A DNA stretch of 37,844 nt. It comes from Micrococcales bacterium. Lineage in GTDB: Bacteria; Actinomycetota; Actinomycetes; Actinomycetales; WQXJ01. Under the pieces are notes generated by a model that saw only the letters and a program-made list of their open reading frames with translations, had not been told where the DNA came from and did no database searches. The stretch is from NCBI GenBank assembly GCA_009784895.1, contig WQXJ01000022.1, positions 1-37,844 of the forward strand, given 5' to 3'. Positions 12,055-37,844 of the stretch are shown piece by piece (the stretch's first letter is position 1; every line of letters starts with the position of its first letter). The position numbers and the translations under genes were made by a program.

Positions 12055-12153
12055 CTGCTGCCCGGTGCCAGCCCTCGCCCCAGGGCTTATGCGAAACCTC
12101 AACCTCGCGGGAAAACGGGAGTGACGCTGTGCTTTGGGCTGCTGCCCGGTGCC
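12055..12153 (+). repeat. 99-bp repeat unit B
   Basis: Matches unit A (11124-11222) at 95 of 99 positions, same orientation. It overlaps unit C with a period of 84 bases. Confidence 0.9.
12087..12114 (+). repeat. Dispersed element, copy 12 (forward)
   Basis: TTATGCGAAACCTCAACCTC then GCGGGAAA, in unit B. Confidence 0.9.
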
Positions 12154-12198
12154 AGCCCTCGCCCTAGGGCATATGCGGAACCTCAACCTCGCGAGAAA
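12139..12198 (+). repeat. Partial repeat unit C, tandem to unit B
   Basis: Sixty bases beginning CTGCTGCCCGGTGCCAGCCC, with four differences from unit B. It ends at the element copy. Confidence 0.88.
12171..12198 (+). repeat. Dispersed element, copy 13 (forward)
   Basis: ATATGCGGAACCTCAACCTC then GCGAGAAA, in unit C. This is the rightmost clear copy of the cluster. Confidence 0.88.
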
Positions 12199-12203
12199 TG
12201 TGA

Positions 12204-12230
12204 AGGTTGGCGCGTTCATCGGGGTACAGG
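12204..12230 (+). repeat. 27-bp direct repeat, right copy (miaB-start duplicate)
   Basis: Exact copy of 11083-11109. It carries an orphan ATG and the codons for NAPT of miaB with no coding continuation. Confidence 0.92.
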
Positions 12231-12304
12231 TTTGCGATGTGGATCATGGTAGGGGAGGTCGACTTGGCTTTCCCTTATTGTGCCCGGTCGCTAGGGTGAG
12301 CCTC

Positions 12305-13606
12305 ATGGTCACACGCTCTGGAAAGCTTCGCACCACAATAACCACCGGAGCGTTGGCGACCGGGCTGCTGTTTGCCCTGACAGCCTGCGGCTCCAGCCCT
12401 GCCAGGACCCTAAACACAGCCATCCCACACGGCACTGACCGGCCCACGTCGACCGGCGGAATCGGCACCATGGTCAAAGGCCCCCTCCCCACCAACTCCG
12501 GCCAGCAAATGGCCCAGCTGAGCGAGCCATTGTTCCCGCTGGTCTTGGCGGCGGCTGATCCCTCCCCGGCCAACCCAAGCTATTCGCCAGTCTCGGTCTA
12601 CCTGGCCTTGGCTTTGACCGGCAACGGCGCCCGAGGCAATACCGCCAGCCAATTTGAACAGCTCCTGGGCGGCGGAATAGAGCAGATCAACGAAATCGCC
12701 ACCGGCATGATGACCGAATACGTCACCGCTGCCGATGGCCCCACCTTGTCAGTGGCCAATTCAATTTGGCTCAATACCGGCTTCGAGCTGGATCCTGCCT
12801 TCTTCGAGACAGCCCGTTCGGTTTTCCGGACTGAACCCACCGTGCTTGACCTCCAGGCCGAGGGCAAAGACAAGATCAACGCCTGGGTCTATGACAAGAC
12901 CAACCACCTGATCCAGCAGATCGTCGACCGGGTCACGCCCGATGCCGTCGCTTTCCTGGTCAATGCCCTTTACTTCAAAGGGGCTTGGGTCACGCCATTC
13001 GACGAAGCTGCCACCACCGATGAACCATTCGCTCTGCTAGACGGCTCGACGGTGCAGGCACCAACAATGGTGGCTAGCGACTTGGCTTTGCCTTACTTCA
13101 AGTCTGATTCAGGCGAGGGCCTGGTCTTGCCTTATGAAGGTGGGCGCTTTGCCATGCTTTTGGTCATGCCGGCCGGTGGCCCCGGTAACGTCGCCTGGGA
13201 CGGCCAGGCCATAGCCAGCTGGTTGACGGCAGCACAGGAACGCGATGGCGTCGAACTGCACCTGCCAAAGTGGGAATCGGAAACATCGGCCAAGCTGGCC
13301 GGGCCGCTGATGGATTTGGGGCTGATCGACGCCTTCACCGATGCCGCCGATCTGACCGGTCTTGGCCAGGCGGCCCCTGACGCGCCGCTGGTCATCTCCG
13401 AGGTAGCCCACAAGGCCGTGGTCAAGGTCGACGAAGCCGGCACCGAGGCGGCCGCTGCCACATCGGTCGGAGTCAGGGCCGGAGCCGCCTTGCCCGGCGC
13501 CGAGCCGGTAGTGGTCCGCTTCGATAAGCCCTATGTCTTCGCCATTGTCGACCTTGACAGTGGGGTGCCACTCTTCTTGGGCCAGGTCACCAACCCAACT
13601 GCCTAA
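12305..13606 (+). CDS. Serpin, secreted lipoprotein (inhibitory-type hinge)
   Basis: A 433-residue serine/cysteine protease inhibitor of the serpin fold. A lipoprotein signal peptide (TTGALATGLLFALTAC, lipobox LTAC, lipid-anchored C28) places it on the outer face of the membrane. Serpin signatures include SPVSVYLALALTGNGARG, FLVNALYFKGAW, and the C-terminal VVRFDKPYVFAIVD followed by PLFLGQVTNP. The reactive-loop hinge EAGTEAAAATSV (G379 onward) has the small residues needed for loop insertion, so it should be inhibitory. The loop between hinge and FDKP is about five residues longer than in alpha-1-antitrypsin, so the P1 residue cannot be named safely; the candidate region is VGVRAGAALPG. ATG at 12305 is chosen because the signal peptide starts there. 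Its stop overlaps the convergent recX stop. Bacterial serpins are sporadic; gut bifidobacteria use theirs against host elastase, a possible but unproven parallel. Confidence 0.93.
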   Translation: MVTRSGKLRTTITTGALATGLLFALTACGSSPARTLNTAIPHGTDRPTSTGGIGTMVKGPLPTNSGQQMAQLSEPLFPLVLAAADPSPANPSYSPVSVYLALALTGNGARGNTASQFEQLLGGGIEQINEIATGMMTEYVTAADGPTLSVANSIWLNTGFELDPAFFETARSVFRTEPTVLDLQAEGKDKINAWVYDKTNHLIQQIVDRVTPDAVAFLVNALYFKGAWVTPFDEAATTDEPFALLDGSTVQAPTMVASDLALPYFKSDSGEGLVLPYEGGRFAMLLVMPAGGPGNVAWDGQAIASWLTAAQERDGVELHLPKWESETSAKLAGPLMDLGLIDAFTDAADLTGLGQAAPDAPLVISEVAHKAVVKVDEAGTEAAAATSVGVRAGAALPGAEPVVVRFDKPYVFAIVDLDSGVPLFLGQVTNPTA

Positions 13607-22516: not shown

Positions 22517-24172
22517 TCATTTTGGGGACTGTGAGGAATCCGGGTTCAAACCGACCCGTTGGCGCAGGCGGGCCAGCCGCTCTTCGACAGAGGGCTGGAA
22601 TCTGGCGCCCGATGCCGGCCCTTCGCCACCTGGCCCGGCCTGGCCTTGACCAGGCGGTGCGGTCCGCGCAGTCAACGGTGGGCCGGCCGGCAGATCCTCT
22701 CTTAGCTGGGTTCGCAGGGCTTCAGTTCGCCGCCGGATCTCGGCCAAAGTTGCCTGATCTGGCGCACCGGGCGGTTGGCTGGTTGGAGGTGACCCAGTGG
22801 TCTCCATCGCGGCTGGTTGACCAAAACCAGGTGCCTTTGTGGCTGGAGCCCCACCCCCAAATTGAACCGGTCCCTCAGGCCCGGCCGGCTCGGCCGGGAC
22901 CGGAGCACCAAAGGCGGGCAACTGCACTGGGGACGGCTGAGGCAGAACCGGCGGCGCTGGCCTGACAGGACGAGCTGGTCTTTGAGGTGCCGGCGTTCGG
23001 ATTGGCCTGGCCGGACGGATCGGCGTGGCTGGCCGGATCGGCGTGGCTGGCCGGATCGGCGTGGCTGGCCGCGCCGGCGAAACTGCTTCGGCTTGGCCTG
23101 GCGACTGGGCCGGGCCAGGCGTTTTCGCAGGTCGTGGTGTTTGGGCTGGTCGTGGTGTTTGGGCTGGTCGTGGTGTTTGGGCCGGGCGAGGCGTTGTCGC
23201 TGGTCGAGGCGGCTGTTCAGGTTTGACCGGGCTGGCCGGCCTGATCGGGGTGGCCGGCCTGGCCGATTCTGCCTGCCTTAGCGGCCGGGACACCTTGGCC
23301 CGCGACGCCGAACTGGCTATCCCGGCCGGCCGTTCCACTTCAGACCAGCTAGGAGCCGCAATGCCACTAGGACCGCCGCGTTCGGCCGGCGCCTTGACCG
23401 CGGCCTTGGATCCTTGGTCGTCTTCCCAGCCTTCAACTGGCCGGTCAGCCTTGACATCGGCGGTGGTGACGTCACCGGTTCCTTGTTTCTCCTCAAGTAC
23501 CTTGGCCAACGGGTCATTGGCTGCCCGCCGTTCTTGCCAAACCGTCCAGATTCGCGCCAGAATCGCAAAACCAGTCGCCACGGTCACCGCCACGGCCAGA
23601 ATCATTGTGACCGCTGCCATCGCCCAGAGCCAGGTATAGGTGGGCCAAGCCCTGGCCAATATGTACAGCGCAACGGCAGCCACCTGCAAGGCGGTCTTCA
23701 GCTTTCCGCCGGCCGTTGCCGGGATTACCTCATGGCGCACCACCACTAGTCGCGCCACGGTCACCAGCAGCTCGCGCAGCAAGATCAGCACCACCACAAC
23801 GAGCGACAGCTCTCCATTGATCGTCAAGGCAATCAGCGCCGCTGCCATCAGTGCCTTATCAGCTATCGGGTCAGCCAGTTTGCCAAAGTCAGTTTCCAAG
23901 TTCCGCGAACGTGCCAAAAAGCCGTCCAGCTTGTCGGTTGCCGCAGCCAGCAGGAAAACGCCGCATGCGATCAGGCGCCAATTCAGTTGGCCTTCGCCAC
24001 CTTTGAAGAAGACAACCAGGAAAACGGGCACCAGTACCAGCCGCAACACCGTTAGGGCATTGGCGACGTTGACTACCGGGGCTGAGGACCGGTCAACCTC
24101 AGGCACGCTGGACACGCTCTGTAGCCTACCGGCGCGCAGGTCAGTTGGGCTGCGACTGGCCACCAATACCAT
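22517..24172 (-). CDS. pgsA: CDP-diacylglycerol-glycerol-3-phosphate phosphatidyltransferase with long Pro/Ala tail
   Basis: PgsA makes phosphatidylglycerophosphate at the inner face of the membrane. The CDP-alcohol phosphotransferase motif is complete: D83-G84-x2-A87-R88-x8-G97-x3-D101-x3-D105. Hydrophobic spans occupy about residues 35-215. Most PgsA proteins stop near 200 residues. This one continues to 551 with a charged linker (about 215-290) and then a very Pro/Ala/Arg-rich tail containing PRPAQT and RPATPI hexapeptide repeats and ending LARLRQRVGLNPDSSQSPK. The tail is in frame with no break, so it is probably real and cytosolic, but its role is unknown. ATG at 24172 is used; GTG at 24115 would give an N-terminus closer to homologues. 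Confidence 0.92.
   Translation of the reverse strand: MVLVASRSPTDLRAGRLQSVSSVPEVDRSSAPVVNVANALTVLRLVLVPVFLVVFFKGGEGQLNWRLIACGVFLLAAATDKLDGFLARSRNLETDFGKLADPIADKALMAAALIALTINGELSLVVVVLILLRELLVTVARLVVVRHEVIPATAGGKLKTALQVAAVALYILARAWPTYTWLWAMAAVTMILAVAVTVATGFAILARIWTVWQERRAANDPLAKVLEEKQGTGDVTTADVKADRPVEGWEDDQGSKAAVKAPAERGGPSGIAAPSWSEVERPAGIASSASRAKVSRPLRQAESARPATPIRPASPVKPEQPPRPATTPRPAQTPRPAQTPRPAQTPRPAKTPGPAQSPGQAEAVSPARPATPIRPATPIRPATPIRPARPIRTPAPQRPARPVRPAPPVLPQPSPVQLPAFGAPVPAEPAGPEGPVQFGGGAPATKAPGFGQPAAMETTGSPPTSQPPGAPDQATLAEIRRRTEALRTQLREDLPAGPPLTARTAPPGQGQAGPGGEGPASGARFQPSVEERLARLRQRVGLNPDSSQSPK
23017..23190 (-). repeat. 18-bp tandem repeats coding for the PgsA tail
   Basis: GGATCGGCGTGGCTGGCC repeats at 23017, 23035 and 23053 (RPATPI units). 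A second 18-bp family, TGTTTGGGCTGGTCGTGG, repeats through about 23131-23190 (PRPAQT units). Both keep the frame. Confidence 0.9.
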
Positions 24173-24408
24173 CTTGACCTGCGGTGGATTGGGGCATCTG
24201 CCCCGCTCGAAGACACTTACAACAATCGATTCTTGAGGGTCACTGCCTCCTTTGCTGCTGGAGGTAGGTAGAATGACTCTTTACGGCTTGCAGGGCAGAA
24301 CAGCTCCTTTTGCCAGGTGCCCGGAGGCATTCGCGCCTGTTGGACAGGTGGTTCGCGGCGGTGTAACTGACAGATGACGCAACCTGATGCATCCCAGGGA
24401 ACAGGGGA
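24173..24408. other. Divergent promoter region between pgsA and the surface-protein gene
   Basis: This 236-base spacer separates pgsA (leftward) from the surface-protein gene (rightward). TAGAAT at 24269-24274 could be a -10 for the rightward gene, but no good -35 lies 17 bases before it. A short CCTCC/GGAGG hairpin precedes it at 24246-24265. No riboswitch was recognised. The surface gene's ribosome binding site, AGGGGA, is clear just before 24409. Confidence 0.4.
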
Positions 24409-27400
24409 ATGAGGATGATGGGTTCCAAGTTTGGGCGGCAATTATCTTTGGCTTGGGTGACGTCAGCCAGTATCGGTATTGCCCTAGTGTTCAGCGGCGT
24501 TACCCCAACTGCGAGCGCTGCCCCACCCACGCCAGACCCAGCCGCAAAGGTATCTGACCCTGCTACCTACCAAGACTATCCGGCCAAATACAACACCGAG
24601 GAGTATTTGCAGCAAGTCACCACCCCTGGCCGGATTTGGACCGACAAGTCAACGTTCAGTGATGACATCGACACTACACACGGCCACCCTGTGATGGACC
24701 CTACCGACACGTTGCCCTTGGGTGCCGATGAACTGGGCGTGGCCCTGTCGGCACTGGGCTCTACCCGGCACATCATTGAAGAGCAGCCGGTGCCGGTCGA
24801 CCTAGTCCTGGTTCTCGACAATTCGTTCTCGATGAACCAGTGCGTCGACAGCAGCCTGAACTGCAACACCGCAGCCACCTACCAAAACTCACGGGCCTAT
24901 GCCATGGTGCAGTCCGTCAATTTGGCGATAAAGACCATAATGGCCGCCAACAGTGCCAATCGGGTCGCTCTGGTGCAGTTCGGCACCGGGGCGGGGTTGC
25001 TGCTACCCCTGGCCGCACCGACTCCAATTAACGCGGCCGGTGATTACGTATTGTTTCAACCGCCAACCGGTACCGGCACCGCCATGTTTCTGCAGTTCGG
25101 CCCGGCTGCCGCCACCAACCGACTCCAGATTGGCGGCACCACAGCTCAGTCGACCAATATGCAGGCCGGTTTTGTCACCGGTATGCGGGTCTTGACGGGC
25201 CAGGCCTCGAGCAATGTATCTGGCGCAAACCAGCGGTACCCGAACGTCATCATGTTCACTGACGGTGAGCCAACTCTGTCCTATAGCGACTCGAATTGGT
25301 ACAACCCAACGTCTACTGCCACTCAAGGGCCGTCTGCGCCGCCAGCGGCCCCCAACAACGTGCCGTTTGGCAACGGTTTTAGGGCGGCATTGGCGGCGGC
25401 GCTGCTAAAGAACCAAATCACGGCGGTCTACAACAACCCAACTTTCAACCAGGCCAATGGCTTACCTCAAGTAGACGCCGCCGTCTACACCGTTGGTCTT
25501 GGCATCGATGCATTGAGCCCAAACGGTAGAGAAGTCGCCCTGGCCACCCTCGACCCGGTGCATCAGATGACCCCTGGAGCCACTGGCGCCGCGGCCAGGT
25601 TCAACACCGCCTGGACCAGTTTCGCGGCCTCGCCCACTGGCCGGGCCCACGTCCAGGTGGTCGGAACGGCCACCACCGGCGGCACCTGGGTCTACTTGGA
25701 CCAGCCAACGGCGCCTTTTGCCATCTACAACCCCAGGCAGCCCAACGTGCCGGACGTGACCTTGAGTGCAGGCATGGGCTACAACGACGCCTACTATTCG
25801 GCCAACACGGCCAGCGACCTGATCGATGCCTTCAACAAGATTATCCAGACCATTACCAACTCAACGCCACAGTATCCAACCCTGATCGAAGGCGACCAAA
25901 ACGCCACCTCCTCCGGTTTCGTTACCATGACCGACCAGCTTGGCCCGTTCATGCAGGTCAGCGATCCATCATCGATGCTGTTGACCTTCTGCTCGAACCC
26001 AGAATCCATCCCGGACCTTGATAATTGCGATCCGGTACACTTCTCGACTCCGAGCGCCACAACACCCAGCCCTGGAGTGACGAGATACACCTTCACCGGC
26101 ACCTACCAGGCGAACATCCTAGCCGGGCCCCAAAACGTGGCAGGCATTGTTATTGAGGTCAGACGTGACGCCTCGCTGGCCACTGGGGACGTGGTGACCT
26201 TCCAGGTTCCGGCCGCATTGCTGCCAATAAACGACTCAGTGGTCACCTTGAGGTCTTCGGCCAGCGGCGTCACTCCAGTGTCGATGCAACGTTACGTTTC
26301 CCGGCCGGTCCATCTCTTCTTCAAGGTGGCACCCAAACCAGGTGTGGCTGACGCTATCGCCAACCCACTGTCACTTAACACCGCCAGTGGGGCGCAGCCC
26401 GGTGACGGCACGGCCTTGGCGGCATACCTGGCCGCAAACACCGACACCAATGGGCAGGTCCGGTTCTACTCCGACGATTTCACTGTCACAGGCAGCGGCG
26501 TAAGCAGGACAGTGACACCACTCTCTATTGCCGTCTTCACTCCGGCGATGGCTAATCCGTTCTACCGTTTTGGCACCAACACTCCGCTATTCGCCGACTC
26601 GAACTTGACAGTCCCACTGACCCTGGCTGACTGGAACGCCCTGCCCAACGCGGCAACGGTTTACTACGGCAACACCGTCTACTACTACGATGATCCGCCC
26701 ACCAACAGCGTTGTGGCGGTGCGCACCGATGCGCTGGCCACAACCAAGGCACAACTGGCGGCGGCCGAGGACGCCACCCACCAGATCGCCGCCGTCGGTG
26801 GCCAGATGACAGCACCAGCTGGCCTGCTAAATTTCGCCCGTCCTGGCGACTTGGACGCAGTCAAGTGCCTGCCTGGCGACTCAGGCTGGGATACAAGCGG
26901 GCCAACCTGCGCCGATCCCACCGGCGCGTACGGCAACCTAACCGACACCGCCACCTATGCCCGGCTAACCCAGTTCACCTCCGAGGTTCCGACCAGACTA
27001 CTGGGCAACAACGCCTTCCTGGCCTACAACCTGCCCGGCCAGCTGGCCATTAGCAAGACGGTGCAGGCCGCGCCAGGGCTCAACCCCGATCCGGCCACCC
27101 CCTTCACATTCACGGTCAACCTGCGGGAGGACAACGCGGCCGGCGCCCCTATCGTGGGCGACTTCGACTACTGCATCTTTGACCAGACGGACCTGACCTT
27201 GCCTGTCAGTTGTCCCGGCACCATCGCCGATGGCGACAGCCTAACCATCACAGCTGAGCAAACAGCCATAATCTACGGCCTGCCTGATTCGACCTACTGG
27301 TCGGTCAGCGAGCAGGCGCCACTGCCACCGGGATTCACCAACACCCAGCCCGCCGGGGGCACCACCAGCGGGACTATCACCGCACCGGACACCTCTACCG

Positions 27401-30174
27401 CCAGTTTTGTCAACACCTACGCGGCCGCCCCAGTTGATATCGCGGCGAACGCCTCCAAGACTCTGACCGGGCGGCCGTGGGCGGCCGGTGACGTGTTCCA
27501 GGCCAGGATGTGCCCGTACCCCCTGCCCGGTACCGGCAGCGCCGTGCAATGCGATGTCGAGACCTTCCAGCAGATTGGCACTACAAACCAAGGCACGGTT
27601 ACGTTCCCAAGCCTGACCTTTGACACACCGGGCGTCTACACCTTTACGATCTCAGAGGTCATCGATAACCCAACACCGGGGATCTCGCATTCGGCGGCGG
27701 TCTTCCAGTGGACGGTGACGGTGACCGACAATGGCAGCGGCCAGCTGGTGGCGACGGAACAGTGGACGCAGACAGTCGACCACAATGGCCTGCCCATCAC
27801 TCCGCCCGCGCTGGTCACGGAAGCCGAATTCGAAAACACCTACGACCCGAATGCCATCAGCGAGCCGTTGACCGCCACCAAGATGATCAGCGACAACTCG
27901 CTGGCCGGAGGCAATCTGCGCACCCCAACCAGCTCCTTCGACTTCACCTTCAGCTACCTCGGGGCCGACCTCCAGTCAGGGGGCAACCCGGCGGTGCCGC
28001 CGCCACTGTTCTACCCGTCCGATCCGGGCCCGGTGACGGTGGCCTCGGCCGGCTCGGCCATCCACTCCCCGGCCGTCATCTACACCCCAGACCACATTGG
28101 GCACAGCCTCTTTTTCAACGCCGTCGAATCCGGGTCCGGCGTGCCGCCCAACGTCACCGTTTCCGATGCCGTCTGGTTCTGGCAGGTCGCTGTCGCCACC
28201 GACCCAGGCTCGGGTGATATTACGTTGGCGGTGACCAATTGCGTCACGACCCAGGCGGCTATTACCCCGGCCGCCCCGTTTGGCAGCTGCGACCCCACCG
28301 CCGCCGGTGCCTGGGCGGCTACCAGTGAGGATGACCGCCTGTTTGTCAATACCTATTCCCCTGACGACGTCGACGCCTTCTTAGAAGCAGTCAAGACTCT
28401 TCAAGGCCGTCCGTGGACCACTGCCGACTCGTTCAGCTTCACGCTAACCGCCAACGACCAGGCCACCACTGACGCGCTGACCAGCGGGGACATTGCCTTT
28501 GACACAAGCTCAGCGACTTGTCCTGGTGTCACGGTCACCGGCCAAGAAGCCACAGTCACAGTTGACTCCACCGCCCAAACCAGTAATCAGGCGCCATTCT
28601 GCTTCGCCCTTACTCTCAGCCAGCAGGGCGCCTACCAATTCGCCTTGACTGAGACCGGTCGCACCGGCCCAACCAACGGCATGACATACGACACCCACAC
28701 TGCCATTTTCGACGTGGTTGTGACCGGTGGCACCACCGCCGGCCAGCTCCAGGCTGATGTGACACTGCGCAACTCGCAGAACGCCACAGCCCAGTTTGTC
28801 AACCGCTACCAGGCGACCCATAGCTTCGCCGGGCTGAACCTGTGGAAAGACCTGACCGGCCGTGACCTGGCGATAGGTGAGTTCTCGTTCACGCTGACGG
28901 GGTTAGACCAAGCCGCCTGCGACAAAGCGTCGCTGCCGTCACCGCCGCCATGCACGGTGCCGTTTACGAACGCCAACGGCACCGGCGACCCTATCTACAC
29001 TCATTTGCCAGCCCAGTTCTCCTTCACCCAGGACGACCTAGGTGAGACCTTCACCTACACCGTGGTCGAATCGACCACTCCGGCTTTGGGCGGGGTCACC
29101 CATGACACCACGACTTTCACGGTCACACTTACCCCCCAGTTCGACCCGGCTACCGGCACCATCTACGTGTTGACGGACGTGACCAGCTCGGCCGGTGGCA
29201 CGGTCAGTTACGATTCGCGCACCGACCCCACTCCATTGCTGACCTTTGCCAACACCTACCTGGCGGCGGCGGTTCAGGCCAGACCAACGTTTACCAAGAC
29301 GCTCTCAGGCCGGGCTTGGACCCAACAAGACGAGTTCAGTTTCACCATCACTGCCTTGACACTGGGGGCGCCAATGCCCGCGCTTACTGACATCACGGTC
29401 GGTTACGCCGACCAATCAGGTAATACGGCCCCGTTCGATTTTGGTGATATCACCTTTAGCAGTACTGGCGTCTTCCAGTACGCCGTGGCAGAAGTCACCC
29501 CAAGTCCCCTACCTGGCGGGATGGTGATCGACCAGACACCTTCCATCGTCACAATTACCGTGACCGATGACGGACAGGGCAACCTTGTCGCCGCGATCGA
29601 CTATGACGGCATCGCCTTCCCCATAAACCGCGATTTCGTCAACTTCTATCAGCCAACCGCGGCCACCGTTTCGTTGTTATTCACAAAGACGCTGACGGGC
29701 CGGGCTTGGACCTCGGCAGACTCTTTCGAGTTCAGGATCACGGCAGTGACACAGACGGCACCGCTACCGCCTGCGTCGTCAGTGACTGTGACCCGGGCCA
29801 ACCGGAACTCATTCGGCTTTGGACCCATCGTCATCACCCAGGCGGGCGTTTTCCGGTACTCGGTTATGGAGACCCGGCCCTCAACTGTGACCAATGGGGT
29901 AAGCCCGGACCCGAATCCCCGCACAGCGGTGGTTACCGTGGTAGACGACGGCCAGGGCAACCTTGTGGCAAGCGTCACCTACCCAAATGGCCAGGCGTTT
30001 ATCAACACCTATTCGCTGGTCCCTGTACCCTCGCCACCGACGCCGCCGTTTGGACCACCTCTGGTCGCCACGGGCGGCCAGCTTGTGGGCCAAGGGTTGC
30101 CGTTTGCGCTGGCGGTCGGGTTGTTGCTGATGGCAGTGGCGATCAGGTTGGTTCGTCGACAGCTAAGAGCCTGA
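24409..30174 (+). CDS. Giant cell-wall surface protein: vWA domain plus seven pilin isopeptide-type repeats
   Basis: A 1921-residue secreted adhesin or pilus-like protein. A signal peptide (hydrophobic core SASIGIALVFSGV, likely cut at ASA-A) starts it. A von Willebrand A domain follows: the metal-site motif D137-NSFS in LVLVLDNSFSMNQC and T284-DG in MFTDGEPTLS. From about residue 880 there are seven repeats of the type found in streptococcal pilins, each opening with a lysine (K883, K1017, K1158, K1329, K1480, K1630, K1760; typically KTLTGRxW-DSFxFT) and closing with FxNTY. In that family the Lys and Asn form an intramolecular isopeptide bond, with an acidic residue on the neighbouring strand. 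The end is L1885-VATGG, then a hydrophobic span and RRQLRA: a sortase signal of LxxTG type rather than LPxTG. The first ATG at 24409 is followed by two more ATGs; all fit. A sortase gene follows after 4 bases. Confidence 0.9.
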   Translation: MRMMGSKFGRQLSLAWVTSASIGIALVFSGVTPTASAAPPTPDPAAKVSDPATYQDYPAKYNTEEYLQQVTTPGRIWTDKSTFSDDIDTTHGHPVMDPTDTLPLGADELGVALSALGSTRHIIEEQPVPVDLVLVLDNSFSMNQCVDSSLNCNTAATYQNSRAYAMVQSVNLAIKTIMAANSANRVALVQFGTGAGLLLPLAAPTPINAAGDYVLFQPPTGTGTAMFLQFGPAAATNRLQIGGTTAQSTNMQAGFVTGMRVLTGQASSNVSGANQRYPNVIMFTDGEPTLSYSDSNWYNPTSTATQGPSAPPAAPNNVPFGNGFRAALAAALLKNQITAVYNNPTFNQANGLPQVDAAVYTVGLGIDALSPNGREVALATLDPVHQMTPGATGAAARFNTAWTSFAASPTGRAHVQVVGTATTGGTWVYLDQPTAPFAIYNPRQPNVPDVTLSAGMGYNDAYYSANTASDLIDAFNKIIQTITNSTPQYPTLIEGDQNATSSGFVTMTDQLGPFMQVSDPSSMLLTFCSNPESIPDLDNCDPVHFSTPSATTPSPGVTRYTFTGTYQANILAGPQNVAGIVIEVRRDASLATGDVVTFQVPAALLPINDSVVTLRSSASGVTPVSMQRYVSRPVHLFFKVAPKPGVADAIANPLSLNTASGAQPGDGTALAAYLAANTDTNGQVRFYSDDFTVTGSGVSRTVTPLSIAVFTPAMANPFYRFGTNTPLFADSNLTVPLTLADWNALPNAATVYYGNTVYYYDDPPTNSVVAVRTDALATTKAQLAAAEDATHQIAAVGGQMTAPAGLLNFARPGDLDAVKCLPGDSGWDTSGPTCADPTGAYGNLTDTATYARLTQFTSEVPTRLLGNNAFLAYNLPGQLAISKTVQAAPGLNPDPATPFTFTVNLREDNAAGAPIVGDFDYCIFDQTDLTLPVSCPGTIADGDSLTITAEQTAIIYGLPDSTYWSVSEQAPLPPGFTNTQPAGGTTSGTITAPDTSTASFVNTYAAAPVDIAANASKTLTGRPWAAGDVFQARMCPYPLPGTGSAVQCDVETFQQIGTTNQGTVTFPSLTFDTPGVYTFTISEVIDNPTPGISHSAAVFQWTVTVTDNGSGQLVATEQWTQTVDHNGLPITPPALVTEAEFENTYDPNAISEPLTATKMISDNSLAGGNLRTPTSSFDFTFSYLGADLQSGGNPAVPPPLFYPSDPGPVTVASAGSAIHSPAVIYTPDHIGHSLFFNAVESGSGVPPNVTVSDAVWFWQVAVATDPGSGDITLAVTNCVTTQAAITPAAPFGSCDPTAAGAWAATSEDDRLFVNTYSPDDVDAFLEAVKTLQGRPWTTADSFSFTLTANDQATTDALTSGDIAFDTSSATCPGVTVTGQEATVTVDSTAQTSNQAPFCFALTLSQQGAYQFALTETGRTGPTNGMTYDTHTAIFDVVVTGGTTAGQLQADVTLRNSQNATAQFVNRYQATHSFAGLNLWKDLTGRDLAIGEFSFTLTGLDQAACDKASLPSPPPCTVPFTNANGTGDPIYTHLPAQFSFTQDDLGETFTYTVVESTTPALGGVTHDTTTFTVTLTPQFDPATGTIYVLTDVTSSAGGTVSYDSRTDPTPLLTFANTYLAAAVQARPTFTKTLSGRAWTQQDEFSFTITALTLGAPMPALTDITVGYADQSGNTAPFDFGDITFSSTGVFQYAVAEVTPSPLPGGMVIDQTPSIVTITVTDDGQGNLVAAIDYDGIAFPINRDFVNFYQPTAATVSLLFTKTLTGRAWTSADSFEFRITAVTQTAPLPPASSVTVTRANRNSFGFGPIVITQAGVFRYSVMETRPSTVTNGVSPDPNPRTAVVTVVDDGQGNLVASVTYPNGQAFINTYSLVPVPSPPTPPFGPPLVATGGQLVGQGLPFALAVGLLLMAVAIRLVRRQLRA

Positions 30175-30178
30175 ACCG

Positions 30179-30874
30179 GTGGACCGGCCGCCGGTGCGCA
30201 ACACCGATCAAGGGCCAAAGGATAGGCAGCCGTCGAGCAGAAACAGATCCAAGAAGCGCTTCGTCTTGTCATTGCTGTCTATCCTTTTGCTCGCCGCCGG
30301 CGGCCTAGCCTTATGGCAGTCAGACCTGTTTAGGTCAGCCCTGTCGCCGGCCGGTGCGCTCCGCGATATGCACGGCAATCTCGTCACCCCCGACCCAGAT
30401 GCCATTATCGACGACCCGACGGCCGAATCCGACATTGGCCTGCGTTTCAAGGTTCCGTCAGTCAGGCTTGACGTCCCGCTCGGTCAAACGGCAGCGGTCA
30501 AAGGACGGATCGGTCCGCCCGGCTTCACCTCCGCCTACTGGGTCTCCAATCTTGGGGTCTGGGTCGAAAACGCTACGGAGGGCACCGTCTACATCGCCGC
30601 TCACTCGCTGCGTCATGGCGGCTGGGCCCCCGGAAACGCGCTGTTCGACATTGAAACTCAGCGGTCTATGGTGTTGCCGGGCGACCAGATTGTGGTTGGC
30701 GACCAGGTCTATTCCGTGACCGAAACCAAGATTATTGCGAAACCTGAGGTTGGCAAGACCGGGCAGCTCTGGCAGAACACACCAAAGCGGCTGGTTGTCT
30801 TCACCTGTCTCCAGAACCGCCAGAACACAGCGTCAACGGACAATATGGTGATTATCGGCACCCTGGTGGAATAG
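30179..30874 (+). CDS. Sortase dedicated to the adjacent surface protein
   Basis: A 231-residue membrane-anchored transpeptidase. An N-terminal span (FVLSLLSILLLAAGGLALW) is followed by an extracellular sortase domain. Catalytic residues: H142 in YIAAHSLRHGG and C210 in LVVFTCLQ. The usual arginine sits several residues after the cysteine, just before the last strand. Here that place reads STDNMVIIG with no Arg, and the only nearby arginine is R214, four residues after C210. There is no C-terminal span, unlike class C pilus polymerases, so it more likely anchors the neighbour to the wall. The closest resemblance is to actinobacterial class E/F sortases; the exact class is unsure. GTG at 30179 lies 4 bases after the preceding stop, implying coupled translation. 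Confidence 0.88.
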   Translation: MDRPPVRNTDQGPKDRQPSSRNRSKKRFVLSLLSILLLAAGGLALWQSDLFRSALSPAGALRDMHGNLVTPDPDAIIDDPTAESDIGLRFKVPSVRLDVPLGQTAAVKGRIGPPGFTSAYWVSNLGVWVENATEGTVYIAAHSLRHGGWAPGNALFDIETQRSMVLPGDQIVVGDQVYSVTETKIIAKPEVGKTGQLWQNTPKRLVVFTCLQNRQNTASTDNMVIIGTLVE

Positions 30875-30920: not shown

Positions 30921-33440
30921 TCAGCCCGGCTGTGGCGGGCCCTCGGACCCACCTAGGTCTGACCCAACCGGCGCCTCGGCGCGGGCCGGGCCAACTGCGG
31001 CATCGGAGGCCTCATGCGGGCCGGCCGGTGCCTCGTCTCCCCGCAACGACGCCAACACCTGTGCCAACGATTCAGGCGGCACCAACACATCGCGAGCCTT
31101 GGACCCTTCAGAGGGACCAACCACGCCGCGCGACTCGAGCAAATCCATCAGCCGGCCGGCCTTAGCGAAACCGACCCGCAGCTTTCGCTGCAGCATGGAA
31201 GTCGAACCGAATTGAGTCGAAATGACCTGCTCGGCGGCCTGCAATAGCAAATCGAGGTCGTCGCCAATATCGTCCTCGATTTGACGCCGCTTATTGGCCG
31301 GGGCCACCACATCGGGCCGGTATTCGGCCTGGGCTTGCCCCTTGACGTGGTCCACCACGGCGTGGATTTCGCTCTCCCCAACCCAGGCGCCTTGCACCCG
31401 CAGAGGGCGCGAGGAGCCGTAGGGCAAGAACAAGGCGTCGCCCTGGCCAACAAGTTTCTCCGCCCCTGGTTGATCCAAGACCACTCGCGAATCAGTCTGG
31501 GATGAGGTGGCGAAAGCCAAGCGTGAAGGGATATTTGCCTTGATGACACCGGTGACCACGTCAACTGACGGGCGCTGGGTGGCCAAGACCAGGTGGATGC
31601 CGGCCGCCCGGGCCAGCTGGGTGATGCGCTGGACTGAAGCCTCGACATCGCGGGGCGCCACCATCATTAGGTCAGCCAGTTCGTCCACTACCACCATCAG
31701 ATACGGGTAGGGCCGTAACACCCGCTTGGAGCCTTCCGGCGGGTGGATGGTGCCGGCTCTGACCGCCTTGTTGAAATCGTCAAGGTGTTTGAAGCCAAAG
31801 TTCTCCAGATCGTCGTAGCGGGCGTCCATTTCGCGCACTACCCAGTCCAGGGCCTCAGCCGCCTTTTTCGGGTCGGTGATGATGGGCGTGATCAAGTGTG
31901 GAATGCCGCCATAGATGGTCAACTCGACCCGCTTGGGGTCAATCAACACCATCCGCACCTCATCCGGGGCAGCCCGCATCAGCAGGGAGACCACCATGGC
32001 GTTGACAAATGAACTCTTGCCGGAGCCGGTGGCCCCGGCCACCAGTAAATGCGGCATCTTGGTCAAATTGGCCACGACGTAACCGCCGCCCACGTCTTTG
32101 CCCAGGCCAACCACCATGGGATGACCGTGGCGCCGGGCCGCGCCGCTGGCCAGCACGTCGCCCAGCGGCACCGTTTCGCGCACCTTGTTTGGTATTTCAA
32201 TGCCAATGGCGCTTTTGCCTGGAATAGGCGAAAGGATCCGAACTTCGGGGCTGGCCACGGCGTAGGCAATGTTGCGCTGCAACTGGGTGATCCGTTCCAC
32301 CTTCACACCCGGACCCAACTCGACTTCGAACCTGGTAACAGTTGGCCCGCAGGTGAAACCGGTGACACTGGCGTCGACCGAAAACTGTTCGAAAACCTCT
32401 TCCAGGGCGGCCACAACAATGCCGGCACCGTCAATTGATTTACCCTTTGGTAGATCCTTGACCAGTAGCTTCGGGTCCGGCAGCTCGTAGAGCACATCCC
32501 CGGTGAGCTCGCCTTGAGTGCCGGGAGGCAGGGCCTGAGGCATCAACTTGGTGCCGGCCGGTTCCGGGGCGCCAGCGCCGCCCAAGACCAACGGCCCGGC
32601 GTCGACTGCGCCGCCGTTAGTGGTTGGCAACCCTGCTCCGTCTAGTTCGCCACCGTCTTCAGGTGTCACCAGGAGATCGGTGACATCGTCTGGTTCACCC
32701 AGGGCGTCTTCAGTTTGGTCCTGTGGCGAACGGTAGGCCTCATCATGCGCGTAGCCGCCTGGCACCCGCGGGCCATCTGCACCCTTTGGCCGGCCGGCAC
32801 TGGACCCGACCCTAAGGCCGAGCGCTCTAACGCCCTGGCGCAGACGGCGCGGTATTTGGGTGACAGGTGTCTTTGTGACGATCAGGAGGCCAAACAAACC
32901 CAGCACCAAGAACAAAATGAAGGCCACCCAGCGGTTGACTAACACCGCCACACCCCATCCGAGCAGACCAACCGCGCCGCCGGCACCACGCACGGCAGCC
33001 CAACCGTCGGTGGGCGATGGCAGGCCGCGGCCAATCTCGATCAGCGAGCAGATCGCCACCGCCATCGCCAGGAAGCCAACCAGAATGCGTGAATTGTCTT
33101 CCTTCCGGTCGGGATGCCGCATCAGCCGCACGGCCATAAACACCAGCAACACTGGCACGGCTTTGCTCAAGACCCCAACCGACCCGGCTACCAGCCAGTC
33201 GATGGCCCTGCCGGCTAGGCCGCTGAGGCCAAACCAGCTTTGCGCGGCCACCACTATGGCCAGGCAAATCAGGCCCAGGGCGCCGCCGTCGCGGCGTTGT
33301 TCGGGTGACAGGGCGCGGGCGCCTTGGCCAATCCGGCGCGCCAGCGAGCCAAGGGCGTGGGCCAAGCCCAGCCAAACCGCCCTTAGTGCGCGCAGTGGCC
33401 ACGCCAGTGGCTGGTCGATGGGCTCGCCTGCCTTGGTCAA
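30921..33440 (-). CDS. ftsK: DNA translocase FtsK
   Basis: FtsK pumps chromosome ends through the division septum and activates XerCD recombination at dif. The 839-residue protein has an N-terminal membrane domain of about four spans, a short acidic/Pro linker, then the alpha-beta motor. Walker A is VAGATGSGKSSFVN (K475), Walker B is YLMVVVDELADLMM, and the downstream motif is HLVLATQRPSVDVVTGVIKANIPSR. The gamma DNA-reading domain is present (ISTQFGSTSMLQRKLRVGFAKAGRLMDLLESRGVVGPSEGSKAR). The TTG start at 33440 is chosen because AAAAGGAG lies about 10 bases upstream and no better start exists. Its order before pgsA is the usual one; the surface-protein and sortase genes split them. Confidence 0.96.
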   Translation of the reverse strand: MTKAGEPIDQPLAWPLRALRAVWLGLAHALGSLARRIGQGARALSPEQRRDGGALGLICLAIVVAAQSWFGLSGLAGRAIDWLVAGSVGVLSKAVPVLLVFMAVRLMRHPDRKEDNSRILVGFLAMAVAICSLIEIGRGLPSPTDGWAAVRGAGGAVGLLGWGVAVLVNRWVAFILFLVLGLFGLLIVTKTPVTQIPRRLRQGVRALGLRVGSSAGRPKGADGPRVPGGYAHDEAYRSPQDQTEDALGEPDDVTDLLVTPEDGGELDGAGLPTTNGGAVDAGPLVLGGAGAPEPAGTKLMPQALPPGTQGELTGDVLYELPDPKLLVKDLPKGKSIDGAGIVVAALEEVFEQFSVDASVTGFTCGPTVTRFEVELGPGVKVERITQLQRNIAYAVASPEVRILSPIPGKSAIGIEIPNKVRETVPLGDVLASGAARRHGHPMVVGLGKDVGGGYVVANLTKMPHLLVAGATGSGKSSFVNAMVVSLLMRAAPDEVRMVLIDPKRVELTIYGGIPHLITPIITDPKKAAEALDWVVREMDARYDDLENFGFKHLDDFNKAVRAGTIHPPEGSKRVLRPYPYLMVVVDELADLMMVAPRDVEASVQRITQLARAAGIHLVLATQRPSVDVVTGVIKANIPSRLAFATSSQTDSRVVLDQPGAEKLVGQGDALFLPYGSSRPLRVQGAWVGESEIHAVVDHVKGQAQAEYRPDVVAPANKRRQIEDDIGDDLDLLLQAAEQVISTQFGSTSMLQRKLRVGFAKAGRLMDLLESRGVVGPSEGSKARDVLVPPESLAQVLASLRGDEAPAGPHEASDAAVGPARAEAPVGSDLGGSEGPPQPG

Positions 33441-33633: not shown

Positions 33634-36600
33634 CTAGTCGTTGTCTTGGCGGTCCCGCCGGCGGCGGGCCGCGATCAGCAATATGCCTAACGCGACCAAC
33701 ACCGCCGCGATCGCGGCCGGTATGCCAACGTTTGAGCCGGTGAACGGCAAGCCGTTGCTGGTCGAGCCGGCGCCAGCAGCCGAACCCGAGCCGGGTGCCG
33801 GGTCGTTGCCAGGCCCGCTGCCCGGCGGCCCAGTCGAAGCTTGGGCAACCACTTGGAACTGGGCTTCAGTTGTGCCGGATAGGGCCCCGGTCAGGACAAA
33901 CTTGTGCGTGCCGGGATCTGTGCCCGCCGGAATGGCAAATGTCCAGGTGGCCTCGCCATTGGCATCGGCCGTCTGGCTGCCTAGGGCCACCGGCTTCGAA
34001 TTCATCACTGCGCTAGCCGACTCGCCAGGCTGAAGATTCTTGACCGTAACGGTTTGCTTGGCCCCGACAACCAGTTTGATCACCGCCGCCACCGCCTTGG
34101 GCAGGCCCACACGCCAGCTGGTTGTGGTCGAATTGCCAACCGGGTCGGTGAACTTGATGGTGACAATCCCACCCTCGCTTAGGGCGGCAGCCAGATTGCA
34201 TGACCAGCTGCCGCCAGTGCCAACTGTGACACTGCATAGGATTGTGCCGCTGGCGTTGGAGATCGTTACCGTGCCACCTGACTCGGCCTGACCTTTGAAG
34301 ACCTTGCCGTCAGTTGGAAGCAACTTCAAAAGTGGCGTTGTCGCCTTGACCTTGACCGCCGCCGGGGCCGAGCTGAAGGTGTGGTTGGCCACCGCCACCG
34401 GGGTGGTGTGGACCGCCGGGTCGAGGTATTGCAGGTTCTGCGACCTGGCCAGCAGCTCGGTACCATGCGCCAAAGCGGTGGCAAATTCGCAGGTCCAGTC
34501 GCCGCTGGCATTGGCGAACGTGATGCAGACGGATTCGCCCGTCGCACCGGAGACTACCTGAATTTGATGGTTCGGCTCGGCCCGTCCGCTGACGGCCCGC
34601 GGCCCGGCCACGGCTGTGGCGAAGGTCGGGGCGGCCGGCGTTGAGACAAACCTAACCGTGACGGTGCCACTGGCCGCAGTCCCGTTGACGGTGAAACCAA
34701 AGACCGCGTCCCCCGGCGAACTGGAACTGACGCTGACGCCAAAGGAGCCGTCGGCGTTTAGGGCGGCCAGGCCGGCATCGGACACCACCACGCCTGTCTT
34801 GGCGGTGCTCACCCGCACCTCGGCATCTGGCAGGTTGAGCCGGTTGCCCAAAGGCCCAAACAGGGTCACTGTCAGGCGGGCCTGGTCTACCGCGCCGCGA
34901 CCCAAGGTGTTAGCCAGATTGGCTTCGACGTAACCACGGTTGGTTTCGATGGTCGATTCGGCCAGCGAAGGACCGGATTCGATCGAGGCAAACACCAGGG
35001 TCAGCGGCGCACCGGAGACGGTTACCTCTGGGAAACCGGGCAGGGTGATGGACAGGTTGACGGTTTCGGCCGTTGCGTCAGTGACCTGGACCGTGGCCGC
35101 CCCAATGGCCGATGTCGCCACCTCGAGTTGGTTTGGTGACGCGCCTTGGGCGCCGGCGATGCGAGCCGAGCCGCTGGCCGTGAATCGAACGGTGACATCG
35201 GGCAGCGGCGCGCCGGCGGCGTCTTTGACCCAAACCACGGCGGTGTGGGCGGCCACGCCGTCACTGGGTGTGGTGCCAAGCGAAGCGGTCGCCACGGCCT
35301 GTGGCATGGAACTGCTGGCCGCGAACTCGACTTGGGCGGGCGAGTTTTCGACCGTGATTGCGCCGATGCCGGGTGGCAAGGCCGCGGTCACGTTGACTAC
35401 CTCTGCGGTCAGGTCGGTGATTTCGATCCGCGCGGTTCCCTGAGGCGAGGTCTGCACCGTCATGGTGTTGGGCGGCGTGGCCGTCGAACCGACAATCCTG
35501 GCCGCGCCGTCAACCGAGAACGACACCTCTACACCGGGGACTGGCCCACCAAGCGAATCAGTCAAAGTCACCGTGGCCGTGTGCCGGCCTATCGCATCAT
35601 TGACCACCACGCCAGACGAAACCGCCAACACGGCACTGGCCAGATCCAACGGCTCGTTGCAGCAGGCCGTGAACCGGGCCATATCAGGGCCGGGCAGATT
35701 CTCGATTTTCCAACCCTCGTCAGGCCAAGCCGAATCCAGGTTCGCCCAAACCTCAATTCGGTAGTCGCCAACCACTCTTGAAGCCACTGTCGCCACATAA
35801 ACTCCAGGCGAGGTTTCAGTGAACTCAGAGATATCTAGATTGGACCCAGTCCCGGCCGACCCAAACGCCCGCAAGTTCGCCGCCTTGCCAGTCACCGGGG
35901 AGCCAACCAGGTCAATCCAATGGGCCGTTATGGTGACCGTCTGGACACCATCCGCGGAAGCCGGTGTGCCGGAGACCTCAAACCACTCGGTGGCCGCCGG
36001 GATAATCAACTCGTAGAACGAGGCATAAACCGACGTTGCGGTCGAAGACTCCCCCGCAATTTGGGCGGTCACCGGATAGGAACCTGGATCAGCCGACCAC
36101 AATGACATCTCTGCCACACCCAGCAGGTCAACACTAGTGCCAGTAGTGACCGTGCAGGTCGCACCTGGGCCACCATCAACCGACTCAGCTTCGGTGCAAC
36201 CGGTCGCTGACGTCCCCGCCGGTACCGTAAAGGCCACATCAACCCCACCAGTCAAAACCGGTGGCGTCTCATCCGTCGACACTGTCGCCCTGATTACCTG
36301 CGGTTCAAGATGAACCAACGACGCCTCAACCGGTGCCGCCAATGACAACTCCAACGCCGCCGGGATGCTCGGCTCAAACTTCGCCTCCAAGGAAATAGAG
36401 GTCAACCAATAGTCAGAGTTGCTGTACCCGACCAGGTAATCCGCTGCCGTAGTCGCGGTCACCTTGATACTCCAGTGACCCGGCGATGTCTCGACCGGAG
36501 TGCCGAACGTCGCCCCTGCCGGTGTCGAGGTTATGGCCCTAGTGCCGGTGTTATCGAGCCTGGGCCTCTCTGGTTCCAGCACTCTCGGATGATCAAGATC

Positions 36601-37844
36601 GGCCTTCACTACGTAGCAGTCCACACCGTCAGCCAAAACCGCAGGATGGGACGCAGTGATCGGGTTGCATGGCTCGATCCACCAGGTGGGCCACCAATCG
36701 CCGTGGGGTCGGTAGAAATTGGCCACATCGTTTGGATTTGGCAAGGCCAACTCGGTCACCTGCCGCCTATTCCCGCCAGGCGTACCCGGCTCGCCAAGTT
36801 CGACAAAGGCCATGATCCGGAAAGCACCAGGCGAAAGCGACGTCACAGTAGCCACATAAACCCCAAGTGTCGCAGTCTCGGCAAATCTAGAAACCGTGGG
36901 TAAGGCCCCATTGTCTGTTAGCAGTAGAACAGTCAACCGGTCAGCTATGCCTGTAAGCGGTTTGCCGGCAGCGTCGTGCGCGGTGACCGTGATTGTGACA
37001 GTGTCCCTACCATCGTCGCGCGCCGCATCAGGCGACACCCTCAAGGTATACCGAGCCGTGGTCAGTAGTCCGTGGAGATCCGTAAAGTCAATCTGGGCGG
37101 GCGAGTTTTCGACGGTCACGGCGCCGATGCCGGGTGGCAAGGAAGCCGTAACATAGGCAAGCCCAGCCCACGGTGACGTTATCTCAATCCGGGCGACACC
37201 CAAGGCTGAAGTCTCAACCGTCAGGGAATTGGGTGGCGTCGCCTCCGAGCCCACAATCTGAGACATGACACTAACCGCGAACGACACCGCGACATCGGGC
37301 ACACCCATGCCATTCTCGTCAGTCACCGTCACCGTGGCCGTGTGAACACTCACACCATCACTCAGCACCTGGCCAGACGAAACCGTCAACACCGCGCTAG
37401 CTACCTGCGGCGGGGAACAACAAGCCACGAAATGGGCCACATCATTCAGGTCCGGTGCTTCTAGTTCGGTCAGCCGGAAACCGTCATCTCTTGAGGTGAC
37501 CGGACCGGTGTAACTGAAATAGACCTCAACCCGGTAGTTGCCAACCACGGTCGATGTCACGGCCGCCTCGTAAACCCCAGGCTCGGTCTCAACGAACTCA
37601 GAAACACTCAAATACGACTCGGTACCAGCCGGCCCGAAAGCCTTCAACTTCGCAGCCAAACCACCAGCCGGAATCTTGAAAATGTGATCCTGAGCCTTAA
37701 CCCGAACCGTCGCCGCATCATTACCCGTCGACAAACTACCTGGCGTCACCCAAACACTGAAATCCAGCCCCTCAACGCTAGGCGGCGGTTCAACAAACCT
37801 GGCTGCCAGGTTCTGCAAACCCATCGAACCTTGGTAGGCGAGCC
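33634..37844 (-). CDS. LPXTG-anchored surface protein with invasin/Big_1-like Ig repeats (5' end outside window)
   Basis: A cell-wall protein of at least 1400 residues. The frame stays open to the window edge (LAYQGS before the first Met at 37824) and no signal peptide is seen, so the true start lies beyond 37844. The C-terminus is a full sorting signal: LPFTG (codons ending at 33750), hydrophobic span and RRRRDRQ. The body is made of Ig-like beta repeats of the invasin/intimin Big_1 style, with a signature such as SDGVAAHTAVVWVKDAAGAPLPDVTVRF. A large module is duplicated: VGNYRVEVYFSY to PPGIGAVTVENSPAQIDF near the N-terminal end, and VGDYRIEVWANL to PPGIGAITVENSPAQVEF in the middle. Both carry a Cys-Cys pair (FVACC, FTACC). 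The likely role is adhesion; the ligand is unknown. The adjacent sortase may or may not process it, because its LPFTG motif differs from LVATG. Confidence 0.88.
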   Translation of the reverse strand, partial: LAYQGSMGLQNLAARFVEPPPSVEGLDFSVWVTPGSLSTGNDAATVRVKAQDHIFKIPAGGLAAKLKAFGPAGTESYLSVSEFVETEPGVYEAAVTSTVVGNYRVEVYFSYTGPVTSRDDGFRLTELEAPDLNDVAHFVACCSPPQVASAVLTVSSGQVLSDGVSVHTATVTVTDENGMGVPDVAVSFAVSVMSQIVGSEATPPNSLTVETSALGVARIEITSPWAGLAYVTASLPPGIGAVTVENSPAQIDFTDLHGLLTTARYTLRVSPDAARDDGRDTVTITVTAHDAAGKPLTGIADRLTVLLLTDNGALPTVSRFAETATLGVYVATVTSLSPGAFRIMAFVELGEPGTPGGNRRQVTELALPNPNDVANFYRPHGDWWPTWWIEPCNPITASHPAVLADGVDCYVVKADLDHPRVLEPERPRLDNTGTRAITSTPAGATFGTPVETSPGHWSIKVTATTAADYLVGYSNSDYWLTSISLEAKFEPSIPAALELSLAAPVEASLVHLEPQVIRATVSTDETPPVLTGGVDVAFTVPAGTSATGCTEAESVDGGPGATCTVTTGTSVDLLGVAEMSLWSADPGSYPVTAQIAGESSTATSVYASFYELIIPAATEWFEVSGTPASADGVQTVTITAHWIDLVGSPVTGKAANLRAFGSAGTGSNLDISEFTETSPGVYVATVASRVVGDYRIEVWANLDSAWPDEGWKIENLPGPDMARFTACCNEPLDLASAVLAVSSGVVVNDAIGRHTATVTLTDSLGGPVPGVEVSFSVDGAARIVGSTATPPNTMTVQTSPQGTARIEITDLTAEVVNVTAALPPGIGAITVENSPAQVEFAASSSMPQAVATASLGTTPSDGVAAHTAVVWVKDAAGAPLPDVTVRFTASGSARIAGAQGASPNQLEVATSAIGAATVQVTDATAETVNLSITLPGFPEVTVSGAPLTLVFASIESGPSLAESTIETNRGYVEANLANTLGRGAVDQARLTVTLFGPLGNRLNLPDAEVRVSTAKTGVVVSDAGLAALNADGSFGVSVSSSSPGDAVFGFTVNGTAASGTVTVRFVSTPAAPTFATAVAGPRAVSGRAEPNHQIQVVSGATGESVCITFANASGDWTCEFATALAHGTELLARSQNLQYLDPAVHTTPVAVANHTFSSAPAAVKVKATTPLLKLLPTDGKVFKGQAESGGTVTISNASGTILCSVTVGTGGSWSCNLAAALSEGGIVTIKFTDPVGNSTTTSWRVGLPKAVAAVIKLVVGAKQTVTVKNLQPGESASAVMNSKPVALGSQTADANGEATWTFAIPAGTDPGTHKFVLTGALSGTTEAQFQVVAQASTGPPGSGPGNDPAPGSGSAAGAGSTSNGLPFTGSNVGIPAAIAAVLVALGILLIAARRRRDRQDND

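Follow-up and report, generated by a model that had tools for sequence, protein, structure and literature searches.

Can a sortase that lacks the arginine of the His-Cys-Arg set stated for all sortase classes (PMC13257024) anchor a surface protein, and if so, what signal does it read? The question is raised by two adjacent genes, one for a giant surface protein and one for a sortase, in a 37,844-nucleotide contig (WQXJ01000022.1 of assembly GCA_009784895.1, from a Micrococcales bacterium), the whole of which is referred to here as the window.

Layout of the locus

The two genes form an insertion flanked by ftsK and pgsA; they are encoded on the other strand from these neighbours, and 4 nt separate the stop codon of the large gene from the start of the sortase gene (Table 1). 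A PgsA search over 39 genomes yields 30 loci; in 13 of 14 same-family loci ftsK and pgsA are adjacent and have no insert, the 14th being cut by a contig edge. The open reading frames and the same-family loci thus bear out what had been read from the letters of the window alone with regard to coordinates, pairing, 4-base spacing and site of insertion.

Table 1. Coordinates of features at the adhesin/sortase locus (positions in the window)
Feature	Position	Strand	Basis
pgsA, left border of insertion	22517..24172	-	TIGR00560
AGGGGA, Shine-Dalgarno-like	24403..24408	+	sequence
Giant surface protein gene	24409..30174	+	1921 aa ORF
vWA domain (aa 132-286) with MIDAS	24802..25266	+	PF13519 E 5e-6; MIDAS residues
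DUF7601 domain (aa 877-1004), Lys883/Glu968/Asn1002	27037..27420	+	
Six FctA/Spy0128-type isopeptide domains (aa 1005-1868)	27421..30012	+	PF12892 E 1.5e-80; Spy0128 3b2m E 6e-4
Sorting signal LVATGG (aa 1885-1890)	30061..30078	+	sequence; relatives SVNTGG (Aeromicrobium), RVATGG, SVHTGG, VVKTGA (Brevibacterium)
Arg-less sortase gene	30179..30874	+	231 aa ORF, GTG start, N-terminal membrane helix
His142 codon, invariant	30602..30604	+	
Thr209-Cys210 codons (oxyanion Thr, nucleophile)	30803..30808	+	Thr role from PMC9520033
Asn222 codon, column of catalytic Arg in other sortase classes	30842..30844	+	
ftsK, right border of insertion	30921..33440	-	

The sortase is found in no same-family genome among those searched, and the base composition of the pair differs only mildly from that of its flanks. 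The core group of its relatives is spread thinly over the Propionibacteriaceae, Microbacteriaceae, Dermacoccaceae, Nocardioidaceae, Bifidobacteriaceae and Brevibacteriaceae, a scatter that makes transfer between lineages likely. (Viral contigs hold no relatives, and plasmids yield a single weak match, E 0.2.) The pair is probably a two-gene surface-display cassette that was acquired horizontally.

Translation of the large gene more likely starts at ATG 24415 or 24418 than at 24409, because the Shine-Dalgarno-like AGGGGA directly abuts the latter. A promoter and terminator scan gave nothing outside the spread of shuffles, and Rfam has no match over 24-31 kb. Elsewhere in the window, a bacterial serpin is encoded at 12134-13606 (+; PF00079, E 1e-81), and PgsA has a Pro/Ala-rich C-terminal extension of more than 300 aa with RPATPIRPATPIR repeats (18-bp tandem units).

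The giant surface protein

The 1921-residue protein consists, in order, of signal peptide, vWA head, DUF7601, six FctA-like repeats and sorting signal. The PF13519 match of the vWA domain is barely above cut-off; its MIDAS is intact (D137-N-S-F-S141, T249, D284). PF12892 matches five stretches of the repeats above threshold, TIGR03786 matches as well, and the Lys/Glu/Asn isopeptide triad is kept in 7/7 repeat domains, so that profile match and triad together place the repeats among the FctA/Spy0128 isopeptide domains. The seven isopeptide-type repeats that the sequence-only reading had counted on a von Willebrand head are accordingly found as one DUF7601 and six FctA/Spy0128-like domains, each with its triad. 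Disulfides are possible too, since the 16 cysteines of the protein form eight close pairs.

Spy0128 is a polymerising pilin of two isopeptide domains. The stalk of the window protein belongs to the same domain family as this major pilin of S. pyogenes (FctA; PDB 3b2m) and differs from it in setting six FctA copies in one chain beneath a vWA head. No homologue of that head is detected at E 1e-10 in 297 genomes of the class (an AF2 prediction made without an alignment reached pLDDT 33, and the model was not used). When the loci of the sortase's relatives are searched with the FctA-repeat profile no FctA partner is found, which places the vWA-FctA adhesin outside what the sortase clade conserves.

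Fold and family of the sortase

Standard profiles do not pick up the window enzyme: it has no match at E 0.1 to any Pfam model, Sortase PF04203 included, or to any in NCBIfam, including the class F model NF033748. Core relatives score 17.7-22.5 bits with PF04203 where matched (gathering cut-off 26.6), relatives score 13-49 bits with NF033748 where matched (curated cut-off 166), and phmmer against the PDB returns chance matches only. The fold is nevertheless the beta-barrel of the sortase superfamily. An AF2 model made from an alignment with 41 relatives has pLDDT 89.8 and matches 128 chains at Z >= 8, among them SrtA (7f87; Z 15.3) and SrtE1 (5cuw; Z 14.1).

In the tree, class F and the clade of the window enzyme separate from classes C and E (support 100/98); the clade is a branch of its own (98/87) and the window's subclade is well delimited within it (100/99). 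The clade is thus sister to class F and lies outside it, and it is undescribed. Neither does the window enzyme group with the class C pilus sortases, and no LPxTG pilins lie beside it. Fold and His-Cys pair identify it as a sortase, placed by the tree as sister to class F and predicted to be of accessory type, serving one substrate.

Class F (NF033748; the C. acnes SrtF of Di Girolamo 2019, as described in PMC13251363 and PMC13257024) resembles this sister group in having asparagine in the catalytic-Arg column and adjacent substrates with P-less signals, of the form G[VA]x[TSA]G in class F. It differs at the residues that follow the cysteine (TCLQ/TCFQ in the clade, TCGG in class F); the clade is further set apart by PGRLV before the cysteine and its core subclade by a juxtamembrane DMxGN motif. 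SrtE1 of S. coelicolor (PMC5148588) is similar in fold, in its actinobacterial origin and in the non-Pro P3 of its signal (LAXTG). A sortase-family gene also closes or adjoins a pstB-type phosphate transport operon in two Arthrobacter loci (L050, L065) and in the organism's own genome (L003, contig 79).

An asparagine in the arginine column

The superfamily histidine and the TLxTC-type cysteine are both present (His142, Thr209-Cys210). In the AF2 model, beta7 comprises residues 204-211 and beta8 residues 221-229; the latter begins S-T-D-N222-M-V-I-I-G, without an arginine. N222, the second residue of beta8, takes the place that is held in SrtE1 by R329 (PMC5148588), which that enzyme retains, and the clade profile sets N222 on the arginine of SrtA (7s54) without a gap. 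A normally placed catalytic arginine was looked for and not found.

Column 222 of the joint alignment is Asn in 52/53 members of the clade and in 47/47 of class F, and Arg in 10/10 members of class E and 10/10 of class C; a second, class-wide sample has Asn in 57/60, with one Asp and two others that resemble non-F sortases. The counts rule out an arginine loss peculiar to the window gene. The sequence-only reading was therefore right that no arginine precedes the last strand, and wrong to regard this as unusual to the enzyme: class F as a whole lacks the catalytic arginine too, and the alignments indicate that the loss, with Asn in its stead, is a fixed feature of class F and its sister clade. 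Across 54 relatives His, Thr-Cys and Asn are near-invariant (the residue before Cys is Thr in 53/54 and Ser in 1/54) while identity elsewhere in the clade falls to about 30%, a pattern that argues for an active enzyme.

What the arginine does in other sortases bears on how such an enzyme could work. Its replacement by alanine abolishes the activity of SpySrtA (PMC9520033) and of F. alocis SrtA (PMC13257024). Whether it serves the oxyanion or holds the substrate is a question raised in PMC9520033, whose SpySrtA-peptide structures have it bonding to the carbonyls of P4 and P3 but not to that of P1, with the Thr before Cys as the likely oxyanion residue; the authors assign the arginine to selectivity. 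An evolved SaSrtA selective for LMVGG, as discussed in that paper, has Ser for Arg and is still efficient. Class E, with its Ala at P3 (LAXTG) and its retained arginine (PMC5148588), implies that loss of the P3 proline does not require loss of the arginine.

Sorting signals and partner genes

The giant protein ends in LVATGG, a hydrophobic stretch and the basic tail RLVRRQLRA. This is the layout of a sortase substrate with a motif other than LPXTG, and the non-canonical LVATG signal proposed for this terminus is accordingly confirmed. A V.TG[GA] match arises in the corresponding stretch in 0.8% of shuffles.

The relatives place the signal in a wider context. An LPxT[GA] tail is absent from adjacent membrane-tailed upstream genes in class F (0/38 and 0/48) and in the clade (0/43), that is, 0/129 as against 4/4 for class C; the class F loci are drawn from best matches and are partly redundant. 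Class F partners, which are partly homologous and so not independent of one another, end in GGVQTG, GGVETG, GADTG, GSVKTG, GVPSG or GVPAG. The seven partners of the core subclade are more diverse: the vWA-FctA protein, a MucBP, an HtaA and an amidase-like protein, two DUF7927 proteins and one unknown protein (Brevibacterium), with sequence similarity between the two DUF7927 proteins only. V.TG[GA] is present in 7/7 of them (shuffle chance 0.8-2.4% each); that proteins mostly unrelated to one another share it supports, independently, the view that this signal is recognised. Judged by these comparisons, the conserved unit is the enzyme with its signal rather than the enzyme with the vWA-FctA adhesin. 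The earlier suggestion of a dedicated, co-evolved pair is consequently well supported for signal and enzyme, whose match the relatives strongly favour, and not for the adhesin, in whose place the relatives have MucBP, HtaA, amidase-like or DUF7927 proteins.

The specificity of clade sortases may be broader or variable. At the loci of at least two core relatives a V.TGG partner was not found: in Microbacterium sp. 8M (L030) a class C sortase and two LPLTG proteins precede the clade sortase, which in Propionicicella (L024) adjoins an LPLTG pilin operon. In Leucobacter (L061, L069, L070, L072, L073) it follows an anchored protein of 1.2-1.3 kaa in which no TG motif was found ahead of the membrane stretch. 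These pilus loci and Leucobacter partners are the grounds for thinking that specificity may vary.

Other signals were seen in passing. Partner tails in Arthrobacter and Kocuria (L074, L075, L076) read NVDTA or NLDTA, with Ala at P1' and no Pro. Class F sortases at large (L078-L125, L198-L255) lie downstream of a gene for a CHRD or DUF4397 protein whose signal, G[VA]x[TSA]G, is P-less, and these neighbours are candidate class F substrates overlooked by LPXTG searches. Just past ftsK in the window, 33634-37824 (-) encodes a 1396-aa LPFTG surface protein with Big_1/invasin-D3 repeats, so that two types of sorting signal, LVATG and canonical LPFTG, occur inside 10 kb.

Alternative explanations

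The arginine might have moved rather than vanished, with R214 (or the C+3 arginine of relatives) reaching the active site and replacing that of beta8. The sequence-only reading had pointed to R214, and there is something to be said for it, in that most clade members have an arginine at C+3 (TC[LF]QR) and one (L013) has Leu at C+3 but Arg at N-2, as though the two had been swapped. R214 itself is not conserved, however, and at least 9/54 clade members (L023, L029, L030, L040, L050, L056, L065, L074, L076) have no arginine at all between Cys and Asn, nor do class F members such as TCGGAFDESTGHYVDN; the residue that is conserved is Asn222. This rules out R214 as a conserved substitute and leaves relocation of the arginine in general an unlikely account.

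Improbable, too, is the reading in which a different sortase encoded in the genome anchors the adhesin and the one beside it is a pseudo-enzyme, whether degenerate or regulatory. The canonical arginine is indeed absent, three other sortase-family genes are present in the genome, and the nearby LPFTG protein suggests that LPXTG sorting probably exists in the cell. But the conservation of His, Thr-Cys and Asn across the relatives is hard to square with degeneration, as is the fact that the gene remains beside its substrate; LVATG lies outside the LPXTG and LAXTG motifs of classes A and E, and the C. acnes sortase, a relative by class, is reported to be active. A role as pilus polymerase, with the giant protein as a pilin polymerised by isopeptide links, would accord with FctA domains of the kind that make up the S. 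pyogenes major pilin Spy0128 and with the pilus operons that adjoin the core relatives L030 and L024. This is very unlikely for a protein that has no pilin YPK motif, at a locus without second pilin or class C sortase, and for an enzyme that groups apart from class C.

Proposed mechanism

Taken as a whole, the locus is probably best explained by an Arg-less sortase, of the clade sister to class F, that anchors the adjacent vWA adhesin via LVATG|G. The large protein would be secreted, its seven domains probably locked by predicted intramolecular isopeptide bonds, and possibly by disulfides, into a stiff stalk bearing a MIDAS-type vWA head of predicted adhesive function. Detained in the membrane by the anchor at its C terminus, it would be recognised at LVATG|G by the adjacent membrane-bound sortase and cut at the predicted site between T and G. 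Cys210 and His142 would carry out the cleavage, Thr209 contributing to the oxyanion hole, and the predicted transpeptidase would then join the Thr to the cell wall as the presumed acceptor, without a catalytic Arg and with Asn222 in its column. Loss of the arginine and of the P3 proline may be one change of substrate recognition, common to class F enzymes.

That the arginine of SrtA holds the P4/P3 backbone, and that the evolved Arg-to-Ser SrtA prefers LMVGG, favours a natural His-Cys-Asn sortase that reads V-x-T-G. The evolved SaSrtA (as discussed in PMC9520033) resembles the window enzyme in having lost the arginine together with a non-Pro P3 signal, and differs in being a laboratory product with Ser in place of Asn. 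As a gene arrangement, the nearest likeness is the AbpA-SrtB locus of oral streptococci (PMC4974636), where a single sortase also lies beside a single adhesin with a new sorting signal; there the sortase is of class B and the adhesin is unrelated to that of the window.

Implications

The chances are about equal for and against the wider proposition that class F and its sister clade form a natural Arg-less (His-Cys-Asn) branch that truly reads V-x-T-G, with Val or Ala rather than Pro at P3, and that the window clade is a new sortase class. The one class F sortase studied, that of C. acnes, is reported to use LPXTG (work cited in PMC13257024), and quadruple deletion of the class F sortases of A. 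missouriensis gave no phenotype (PMC13251363). If true, the proposition would overturn His-Cys-Arg as the rule for all sortases, and most class F enzymes would have their missing substrates encoded by the gene next door, which is a concrete prediction of what class F sortases act on. A natural and widespread Arg-less branch with altered P3 makes the role of the arginine directly testable, and could yield an orthogonal enzyme for protein ligation.
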